A DNA stretch of 64,000 nt from NCBI RefSeq assembly GCF_025370755.1, contig NZ_JAMXFC010000026.1, forward strand, positions 1 through 64,000. Reading direction: 5' to 3'. Position 1 is the first letter of the stretch, and each line of letters begins with the position of its first letter. Under the pieces are notes generated by a model, which did no database searches, was not told the origin of the DNA, and worked only from the letters and a program-made list of their open reading frames with translations. Position numbers and translations under genes: made by a program. Origin of the DNA: Laspinema sp. D2d (GTDB lineage Bacteria > Cyanobacteriota > Cyanobacteriia > Cyanobacteriales > Laspinemataceae). Below are positions 2,961 through 9,401 of the stretch, one piece after another.

Positions 2961-3707
2961 TTATAAGGGTTTTTGCATCAAATAAAAGACATACCCAAAA
3001 AACTCACTATAGCGATCGCAAATGTCAAGTTCTCGTTCAGTTTCAGTGAGGACTTCGGATAATGCCGGGGTAAGATTGCCTGCCTTGCGTAATTCTTGGA
3101 CGCGATGACTCAGAGGGTTTAAATATTCATCCCACCAGGCCGATCGCGGTAAAATAAAGGTATCCAATACCTCATACCCGGCCTCGGTTGCTATTTTAAT
3201 ATTGTCCTTAATTGTCATCATTTCTGGATATCCCACTTGCCAATATTCCCAAACTTCCCGAGGCGGATTATCCTGAATCCAAGTACATTCACTGACCACC
3301 ACCAGTCCTCCATCCCGCAACAGGGGACGCCACAGGCGCAATCCGTTGCTAAACCCCAGGAGATAGACGGCCCCTTCTGACCAAATCAGGTCAAAACTGC
3401 CCGGAGGGTAATCTAAGGCCCCCATATCGGCTTGACGAATCGTGATGCGATCGCGCAGTCCCACTGCCACCGCAGACCCTTCCAACTGCTTGAGAAAGGG
3501 TTCATGCAAATCCACCGCGATTACCGTCGTATTCAACTCCTGGGCTAAAACCAAACTCTGCCGCCCAGGACCGCATCCCAGGTCCAAAACCTTCGGCGAT
3601 CGCGGCAACGGAGGCAACCGGCGAATCGCCTCCCGGGTCGCCTCATCACTTCCGGGTCCTTCTCTGGGCAGATTGCAATGAACCGTAAACAATGCTTCCA
3701 AATCCAT
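2961..3707 (-). CDS. Class I SAM-dependent methyltransferase
   Basis: The 248-residue protein carries motif I VLDLGCGPGRQSLVLA (about 40-55), motif II-like VIAVDLHEPFLKQLE (about 64-78), and a motif III/IV region with IRQADMGALDYPPGSFDLIWSEGAVYLLGF. These are the hallmarks of the small class I methyltransferases that act on metabolites or polyketide-like substrates. No substrate-specific domain is present. The gene is isolated, on the minus strand between two plus-strand genes. The ATG at 3707 is the first in frame and has an AGAGGAGGG-like sequence just upstream. Substrate unknown. Confidence 0.85.
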   Translation of the reverse strand: MDLEALFTVHCNLPREGPGSDEATREAIRRLPPLPRSPKVLDLGCGPGRQSLVLAQELNTTVIAVDLHEPFLKQLEGSAVAVGLRDRITIRQADMGALDYPPGSFDLIWSEGAVYLLGFSNGLRLWRPLLRDGGLVVVSECTWIQDNPPREVWEYWQVGYPEMMTIKDNIKIATEAGYEVLDTFILPRSAWWDEYLNPLSHRVQELRKAGNLTPALSEVLTETERELDICDRYSEFFGYVFYLMQKPL

Positions 3708-7963: not shown

Positions 7964-8821
7964 TTACGCTGCGGATAATTCACGCACCGCTTCCACCCCA
8001 CGCACCCGACGCCCGACTGCTGCTGCCACCGGACCCAAACTCTGCACCAACTCTACCATTTCGGGAAGAGAAAGCGCCTGCCTCGCATCAGATACCGACT
8101 GTTCCGGTTCCGGGTGACACTCAATAATCAACCCATCGGCACCCGCTGCCACTGCCGCCCTTGCCAATCCTGCTACTAATTCGCGCTTCCCTGCGGCATG
8201 AGACGGGTCCACCATTACCGGCAAATGGGTAATCTGTTTCAGGGCCACCACTGCCCCCAAATCCAGAATATTCCGGGTGAAGGAATCGAAACTGCGGATC
8301 CCCCGTTCACAAAGAATCACATCGGGATTCCCATGACTGAGGATATATTCGGCAGCAAATACAAATTCCTCCAGAGTCGCTGCCAGTCCCCGCTTTAACA
8401 ACACAGGTTTACCCGCTTCCCCTAATGCTTTGAGCAAGTCGAAATTTTGCATATTCCGACTACCCACTTGTAACAGATCCGCGTGAGCAACAATACTTTC
8501 AATTTGGTGAACCGACATCACCTCCGTCACCACCGGAATCCCATAGCGCTGACGCACTGCCGATAAAATAGTTAACCCCGCATCTCCCATGCCTTGAAAC
8601 GCGTAAGGGGAGGTGCGGGGTTTGAAAACGCCACCGCGTAACAGTTGTACAGGGGCATGGGCGAGGTGACGGGCGACGGTTTCCATTTGTTCGAGACTCT
8701 CCACGGCACAGGGACCGCCAATAATTAATAAGTCTTGGCCCCCGATAGTGGTGCGATCGCCGATAGAAATGGCGGTTTGGTGCGTGGGATGAGATTTGCT
8801 GACGAGTTTGGCATTTTTCAT
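7964..8821 (-). CDS. aroF: 3-deoxy-7-phosphoheptulonate (DAHP) synthase, type I-beta
   Basis: The enzyme condenses phosphoenolpyruvate and erythrose 4-phosphate, the first step of the shikimate pathway. Motifs GGPCAVES, LRGGVFKPRTSPYAFQGMG, QVGSRNMQNFDLL, LCERGIRSFD, DPSHAAGKRE and IIECHPEPEQSVSDARQAL identify the beta (KDO8P synthase-like) type. The frame is open to a TTG at 8842, but the ATG at 8821 has AGGAG seven bases upstream and gives 285 residues. There is no fused chorismate mutase or N-terminal ACT/ferredoxin-like domain for feedback control. That fits the unusual leader upstream, in which two aromatic-codon attenuators could supply the regulation. Confidence 0.95.
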   Translation of the reverse strand: MKNAKLVSKSHPTHQTAISIGDRTTIGGQDLLIIGGPCAVESLEQMETVARHLAHAPVQLLRGGVFKPRTSPYAFQGMGDAGLTILSAVRQRYGIPVVTEVMSVHQIESIVAHADLLQVGSRNMQNFDLLKALGEAGKPVLLKRGLAATLEEFVFAAEYILSHGNPDVILCERGIRSFDSFTRNILDLGAVVALKQITHLPVMVDPSHAAGKRELVAGLARAAVAAGADGLIIECHPEPEQSVSDARQALSLPEMVELVQSLGPVAAAVGRRVRGVEAVRELSAA

Positions 8822-8860: not shown

Positions 8861-8893
8861 AAAAAAGCCCGGAACCTGTTTAAAGTTCCGGGC
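8861..8893 (-). terminator. Attenuator 2 terminator hairpin before aroF
   Basis: Read on the minus strand, GCCCGGAAC (8893-8885) and GTTCCGGGC (8875-8867) form a 9-bp stem, followed by six U residues (8866-8861). The 5' arm can instead pair with GTTCTGGG at 8931-8924, which lies in the last codons of leader peptide 2. Terminator and antiterminator are therefore mutually exclusive. Confidence 0.85.
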
Positions 8894-8920
8894 GGAGGCG
8901 ATTTGGCATCATGACAAAAC

Positions 8921-8986
8921 CTACCCAGAACTCTTTCTGAGCCAAAAATAAAAGCCAAAAAACCAGTTATTGAGATGGGATGTCAT
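8921..8986 (-). CDS. Leader peptide 2, aromatic-rich (21 aa)
   Basis: ATG at 8986 opens a 21-codon frame ending TAG at 8923-8921. Its centre reads NWFFGFYFW: seven aromatic residues among nine codons (two Trp, four Phe, one Tyr). AAAGGA lies upstream, though at a long spacing. The last codons (Ser-Ser-Gly-stop) form the 5' arm of the putative antiterminator for the hairpin at 8867-8893. This is the layout of a classical peptide-leader attenuator. Translation itself is inferred. Confidence 0.75.
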   Translation of the reverse strand: MTSHLNNWFFGFYFWLRKSSG

Positions 8987-9027
8987 GGCGATCGCCTTTT
9001 TCCTTTGCGAGATAGTGCTTCAAACCA

Positions 9028-9057
9028 ACAAAAAACCGCAGCGTTGCTTCTGCGGTT
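9028..9057 (-). terminator. Attenuator 1 terminator hairpin
   Basis: On the minus strand AACCGCAG (9057-9050) pairs with CTGCGGTT (9041-9034) across an 8-base loop, followed by a U run (9035-9030). The GGTT/AACC end of the 5' arm is shared with the competing 11-bp hairpin at 9054-9101. Confidence 0.85.
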
Positions 9058-9101
9058 CACCAGCGGTTTCCATGTCAAAATGGATTCACGGCTGGTGAAC
9101 C
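9054..9101 (-). promoter_or_regulatory. Attenuator 1 putative antiterminator hairpin
   Basis: GGTTCACCAGC (9101-9091 on the minus strand) and GCTGGTGAACC (9064-9054) form a perfect 11-bp stem. Its 5' arm overlaps the final codons Val-His-Gln-Pro of leader peptide 1, so a ribosome at the stop codon would mask it and a ribosome stalled on the aromatic codons would not. Confidence 0.75.
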
Positions 9102-9142
9102 AAGATAAACCAAAAATAAAAATAGGGGCTGGGGTTTAACAT
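9086..9142 (-). CDS. Leader peptide 1, aromatic-rich (18 aa)
   Basis: ATG at 9142 opens a frame reading MLNPSPYFYFWFILVHQP and ends TGA at 9088-9086. Six consecutive aromatic codons (Tyr-Phe-Tyr-Phe-Trp-Phe) match the three end products of the pathway whose first enzyme is encoded downstream. No clear ribosome binding site is visible. Position relative to the antiterminator and terminator hairpins follows the trp/phe attenuator pattern. Confidence 0.75.
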   Translation of the reverse strand: MLNPSPYFYFWFILVHQP

Positions 9143-9190: not shown

Positions 9191-9219
9191 AACCTAACAA
9201 AGCTCCAACCCGATGTCAA
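9191..9219 (-). promoter_or_regulatory. Candidate promoter of the aroF leader
   Basis: TTGACA at 9219-9214 on the minus strand is a consensus -35. A weak -10 (TAGGTT, 9196-9191) lies at 17-bp spacing. Transcription would start near 9184, about 40 bases before leader peptide 1. Confidence 0.4.
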
Positions 9220-9317: not shown

Positions 9318-9401
9318 GATCCTCCCAACCCCCCTTGGCAAGGGGGGTTTTAGTAATGGGTTAATATAAAGCCCCCCTTGACAAGGGGGGTTGGGGGGAT
9401 C
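9318..9401. repeat. Short element with inverted GATCCnCCCAACCCCCCTTG arms
   Basis: Two arms in opposite orientation (from 9318 and back from 9401) each include AACCCCCCTTG.CAAGGGGGG. They form an 84-bp element of the same family as the repeats near 2.7 and 11.7 kb. It lies between the exporter ATPase gene and the aroF leader. Confidence 0.8.

Follow-up and report, generated by a model that had tools for sequence, protein, structure and literature searches.

How a cyanobacterium might adjust the synthesis of a DAHP synthase to the supply of aromatic amino acids is the question raised by the minus strand of the 64-kb stretch of Laspinema DNA analysed here (the window), where aroF is preceded by two short reading frames rich in aromatic codons. 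The first-pass annotation had claimed that each of these frames is followed by a U-tailed terminator hairpin, and that the last codons of each leader form the 5' arm of an alternative hairpin that takes bases from the terminator. The frames, the terminators and both alternative pairings were confirmed (Table 1). While that reading was right about the ORFs and the hairpins, it overlooked a third conserved helix at leader 2 (hereafter the lock helix), the promoter, and the presence of all three aromatic amino acids in each leader. Our analysis indicates that two serial ribosome-mediated transcription attenuators very probably tie the expression of aroF to the charging of tRNA-Phe, tRNA-Tyr and tRNA-Trp.

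The elements follow each other as one unit, in the order promoter, leader ORF 1, terminator 1, leader ORF 2, terminator 2 and aroF, with an intrinsic terminator between leader and gene in both cases. No obvious Shine-Dalgarno sequence was seen for leader 1 in the window. Short inverted repeats of the CCCCCCTTGTCAAGGGGGG type, which resemble small dispersed repeats, lie at 9330-9400 of the window, in the interval that separates the aroF promoter from the ABC-transporter gene upstream of it.

Table 1. Elements of the aroF leader region in the window, listed in the direction of transcription.
Feature	Position	Strand	Details
Predicted promoter	9191..9219	(-)	TTGACA 9219-9214, 17-nt spacer, extended -10 TGtTAGGTT (TAGGTT 9196-9191)
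Leader peptide 1 ORF, MLNPSPYFYFWFILVHQP	9086..9142	(-)	Family consensus ~M..SSYFYFWF..VHRE*; covariance model R1 in 86/293 genomes
Antiterminator 1, 5' arm, GGTTCACCAGC, within the last leader-1 codons	9091..9101	(-)	Partner 9064-9054; double-sided changes in 6/11 pairs
Antiterminator 1, 3' arm, GCTGGTGAACC	9054..9064	(-)	Captures AACC of the terminator 1 5' arm; partner-swap z = -7.2
Intrinsic terminator 1, AACCGCAG / CTGCGGTT, U-run	9030..9057	(-)	100% of cells paired, 23 diverse loci
Leader-2 lock helix, 5' strand, around the leader-2 start codon	8981..8997	(-)	Partner-swap z = -5.8; controls -0.9, 0.0
Leader peptide 2 ORF, MTSHLNNWFFGFYFWLRKSSG	8921..8986	(-)	Consensus ~MT...SWFYGFYFWPR.SSG*; covariance model R2 strong in 85/293 genomes
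Antiterminator 2, 5' arm, AGTTCTGGG, last leader-2 codons	8924..8932	(-)	94.6% of cells paired; partner-swap z = -7.5
Leader-2 lock helix, 3' strand	8896..8916	(-)	Conserved GTCATG and sequence downstream
Antiterminator 2, 3' arm = terminator 2 5' arm, CCCGGAACT	8884..8892	(-)	Complementary to 8932-8924
Intrinsic terminator 2, GCCCGGAAC / GTTCCGGGC, U-run	8861..8893	(-)	95.6% of cells paired
aroF, DAHP synthase catalytic core PF00793	7964..8821	(-)	Ferredoxin-like regulatory domain absent

The gene starts at 8821 and its product is a 285-aa DAHP synthase recognised by Pfam (PF00793, E = 2e-73) and by the NCBIfam models PRK08673 and TIGR01361. A Pfam search found no match to the ferredoxin-like domain PF18152 in this product. 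The genome encodes a second DAHP synthase (L208; G000:C15, 37000-40200), which carries that domain and has no aromatic leader within 500 nt upstream. In the DAHP synthase of Thermotoga the ferredoxin-like domain mediates feedback inhibition; since AroF lacks it, the short enzyme is probably regulated at the level of its synthesis.

Next, we studied the properties of the leader peptides. Both are short ORFs enriched in codons for the end products of the pathway, with ~6-7 aromatic codons per leader. Among diverse representatives of the family, Phe, Tyr and Trp are all present in leader 1 in 24/25 sequences and in leader 2 in 34/35, and the last aromatic codon lies 7 codons ahead of the stop in 18/25 and 31/35, respectively. 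Within the window, only 11 of the 1205 short-ORF candidates contain at least five aromatic residues within 9 codons, and among these 11 a terminator-like hairpin follows leaders 1 and 2 only, which led us to reject a chance occurrence. When 18 other loci coding for FYFW were inspected across the whole genome, the end of a short ORF followed by a terminator was found in none of them (0/18); one other genomic FYFW site does have a hairpin, but there the frame continues for 33 codons. NCBIfam held no model for the leader peptides, and the sub-threshold Rfam matches to trpB, NsiR1 and ctRNA returned by the searches of the window and the region were judged to be due to chance.

To assess the alternative pairings we relied on the upstream regions of aroF orthologs with at least 70% identity. 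Aligning such regions had been proposed in the first-pass annotation as a check; in the alignment the leaders are conserved and antiterminator 1, an 11-bp hairpin, has 92% of its cells paired across 23 diverse loci, with changes on both sides in 6 of its 11 pairs. Slid controls reached at most 52% of cells paired and three double-sided pairs. The arms of unit 2 are nearly invariant within the order, and alignment-based covariation is accordingly weak for antiterminator 2, so we used instead a partner-swap test on a wider set of loci. This test is alignment-free and compares the duplex energy of a locus's own arms with that of arms exchanged between loci; the final set was dereplicated and included other orders. 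It gave z = -7.2 for antiterminator 1 (n = 25) and z = -7.5 for antiterminator 2 (n = 35), and in neither case did any of 5000 permutations reach the observed value. In both units, then, the antiterminator and the terminator are mutually exclusive and the antiterminator arms covary, as judged for unit 2 by the partner-swap test. Moreover, the RNA arms are retained in loci with a truncated ORF (L020, L035) or a shifted frame (L106), which indicates that selection acts on the RNA itself.

A closer examination of unit 2 unveiled the lock helix, in which the bases around the start codon of leader 2 pair with those directly past its stop, including the conserved GTCATG. In the window it joins GGCGAT...ATGACA with TGTCAT...ATCGCC, and at another locus (L015) GCGAAAACAGC..ATGACA with TGTCGTGCTGTCTTTTCGC. 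Its partner-swap score was z = -5.8 (n = 35), compared with -0.9 for a mid-leader control, 0.0 for a control upstream of leader 2 and -2.0 for the leader-1 start region. The last of these had scored -4.3 on a less dereplicated set and fell to -2.0 with stronger dereplication, while the lock stayed at -5.8. In ensemble folding without a ribosome, the mean probability of terminator 2 was 0.90, and it dropped to 0.73 when the start region was omitted. No comparable lock exists in unit 1, where the probability of terminator 1 without a ribosome was 0.41. The lock helix thus predicts that an untranslated leader 2 would lead to termination by default.

The arrangement of these elements suggests the following model. 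RNA polymerase would initiate at a single promoter ahead of leader 1. With aromatic aminoacyl-tRNAs in ample supply, the ribosome would reach the leader stop and mask the 5' arm of the antiterminator, so that the terminator would fold. When any one of the three aromatic amino acids is scarce, the ribosome would stall within the aromatic run, whose last codon lies 7 codons before the stop, leaving the 5' arm exposed to pair with the 5' side of the would-be terminator, and the polymerase would read through. Leader 2 would then repeat the test made at leader 1, and aroF would be reached only past both terminators. If no ribosome is loaded on leader 2, the helix between its start and the sequence past its stop would form, favouring termination by default and hiding the start codon.

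If its footprint resembles that of the E. coli ribosome, a ribosome stalled at the aromatic codons leaves arm 1 largely or fully exposed, and one that has reached the stop masks it. Using E. coli values for the footprint, we found that the geometry at this locus places arm 1 under a stop-bound ribosome and frees it when the ribosome is at the control codons, and folding agreed in direction. Switching of the minimum free energy structures was partial, and ensemble probabilities were used in its place. With a ribosome at the stop, the terminator probability was 0.83 for attenuator 1 and 0.96 for attenuator 2, and with a stalled ribosome it was 0.50 and 0.58, respectively; without a ribosome attenuator 2 gave 0.90. 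Across 96 loci, the stalled state of attenuator 2 had a terminator probability below 0.3 in 32 and above 0.7 in 50. As the loss of the terminator on stalling is partial at equilibrium, co-transcriptional kinetics must matter in the model.

The serial character of the two units is suggested by the distribution of promoter-like sequences. A score of at least 9 was found upstream of leader 1 in 85/87 loci, between the leaders in 3/87, and between leader 2 and aroF in 14/87. With a single conserved promoter upstream of leader 1, transcription most likely traverses both units in series.

Then, we determined how widely this arrangement is conserved. An automatic parse identified both leaders in 89 of 97 aroF upstream regions, a set that includes copies of the same genomes; in three more (L073, L091 and L106) the parser detected leader 1 with its start codon unassigned. 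When covariance models of unit 1 (R1) and unit 2 (R2) were searched in 293 genomes of the order, R1 was found in 86 and R2 in 85 with strong matches and in 3 with weak ones, and short aroF was present in 87. Cross-tabulating the co-occurrence of units and aroF by hand, we found that 80 of these 87 genomes have both units adjacent, 6 have a single unit and in the last one aroF lies at the end of a contig. Five genomes of the order have an R1 match but lack short aroF, and intact attenuator pairs were found only with short aroF. In a sample of the phylum (292 genomes), short aroF was present in 29 genomes and R2 in 27 of these; of the remaining two, G040 has unit 1 only and G405 has both leaders visible by eye. 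Loci from further orders of the class (L180, L181, L183-L185, L188 and L222) share the tandem layout, whose named hosts include Laspinema, Oscillatoria, Nostoc, Anabaena, Calothrix, Scytonema, Brasilonema and Lyngbya. The tandem arrangement is probably ancient in the class.

Several loci depart from the common layout. At L190 (G012:C1, 65000-69500; positions ~460-570) the hairpins of attenuator 1 persist with no recognisable leader peptide and no aroF, an apparent relic of gene loss, and two genomes of the same genus (G011 and G013) have an R1 match without short aroF. The R1 match of G170 sits at a contig end. At L192 (G103:C48, 70500-74700; ~3305-3680, minus strand) a deletion fuses leader 1 to a short remnant of aroF, apparently a pseudogene. 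In another genome (G282:C1, 4848374-4851519) ~2 kb separate terminator 2 from aroF, which suggests an insertion between the attenuators and the gene. Finally, at L227 (G271:C1, ~730329-730478) the in-place stop of leader 2 has been lost with the hairpins still recognisable, and the second unit is possibly decaying or altered.

Other explanations can be weighed against these results. The leaders could be nascent-chain arrest peptides of the TnaC type, with a free aromatic amino acid or some other ligand as their signal instead of tRNA charging, and leader 2 does have an aromatic core, WFYGFYFW, whose sequence is conserved beyond what simple codon counting requires. However, aromatic residues replace one another, and several lineages have a longer or reordered run (SFFSFYFFW in L017, RYFYFYFFW in L185 and NSYYFWFYFW in L225), which favours the sensing of tRNA charging over a specific arrest peptide. 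The residues past the run vary too, yet the 7-codon spacing is held in most leaders, and we consider an arrest peptide highly improbable. It is very unlikely that just one attenuator is active, the other being a relic or mainly the source of a trans-acting small RNA or peptide. A few lineages do have a single unit, with leader 2 only in five genomes (G010, G034, G054, G060 and G174) and leader 1 only in G040, but the great majority keep both, each with partner-specific pairing, and a relic would not hold these features over several orders.

That the hairpins belong to a riboswitch, a T-box or a protein-binding leader, with the small ORFs incidental, has a next to negligible probability. The 5' UTR is strongly structured and contains terminators, as such an element would, and there is a very weak match to the Rfam trpB motif over attenuator 2 (25.3 bits, with a gathering threshold of 59). 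Yet no Rfam family, T-box included, reached the gathering threshold at the locus; in the whole window the T-box covariance model was unmatched and tRNA was the only family to reach that threshold. In addition, both ORFs are kept in frame, with their aromatic codons at a constant distance from the stop, and the 5' antiterminator arms fall inside the coding ends of both.

Taken together, the conserved leaders, the partner-specific antiterminators, the 7-codon spacing, the shared promoter and the exclusive linkage to aroF support two ribosome-mediated attenuators in series. These parts and their arrangement are read directly from the sequence; from them we infer leader translation, stalling, readthrough and a multiplicative output. 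The trp/phe-type logic that the first-pass annotation had proposed for the pair is thus supported by conservation, pairing and spacing, while the sharper response that it expected, with both units needed, is likewise something that we infer. The two units may also differ on purpose, although we hold this idea tentatively and slightly short of an even chance. Attenuator 1 would leak if its leader is untranslated and attenuator 2 would be locked, so that opening would need a ribosome both loaded and stalled at the aromatic codons. A shortage of aromatic amino acids could in this way be distinguished from a general drop in translation, giving tight control of a DAHP synthase that has no ferredoxin-like regulatory domain.

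If this model is true, aroF represents a widespread and well-conserved case of attenuation in cyanobacteria and a naturally occurring tandem device directed at one group of amino acids, whose gain (the product of two readthroughs) and lock helix are directly measurable. It would also offer a possible control route for DAHP synthases without the regulatory domain, which is relevant to engineering aromatic products in cyanobacteria.

The units resemble the trp and pheA-type attenuators of E. coli in having a short ORF rich in end-product codons, an intrinsic terminator, and a ribosome position that selects between alternative hairpins. They differ from them in their three-segment layouts, in which arm 1, lying in the final codons of the leader, pairs with sequence close to the terminator, and in the presence of two serial units, of all three aromatic amino acids in each leader, of a gene of the common pathway, and of a cyanobacterial host. 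Tandem T-boxes and tandem riboswitches likewise place serial terminators on one leader, an arrangement relevant to a sharper response, but there the RNA senses tRNA or metabolites directly with no leader peptide, whereas here leader peptides are present. The mgtCBR leader of Salmonella, with mgtM and mgtP, also combines two leader ORFs and two attenuators in one 5' UTR; its units respond to two different signals (ATP and proline) and its stem-loops are unlike intrinsic terminators (PMC3641672), whereas the two units described here are directed at one and the same group of amino acids, each with an intrinsic terminator of its own. The uORFC-13-1 motif, which precedes aroF in Acholeplasma, comprises a candidate uORF with Phe codon(s) and a terminator; it was described as a single unit from one genus plus environmental sequences (24 representatives), with no tandem layout (PMC8632094), and a comparison by description sets it apart by taxon and by its single unit. 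The trpB motif (RF04312) of Firmicutes and Fusobacteria has a hairpin followed by a terminator near amino-acid genes, with no aromatic leader described (PMC11109978); it belongs to other phyla, and its match here is far below the gathering score. A 2016 paper stated that reliable data on attenuation were lacking for cyanobacteria (PMC4833913). In agreement with the first-pass annotation, which knew of no tandem aromatic leader in cyanobacteria, we found no prior description of cyanobacterial leader peptides, tandem attenuators or aroF attenuation in the open-access literature, a scope that leaves priority unproven. Ribosome-mediated attenuation is a known mechanism; what appear new in that literature are the phylum, the tandem layout in which two units with an intrinsic terminator each serve the same signal, and the lock of leader 2.
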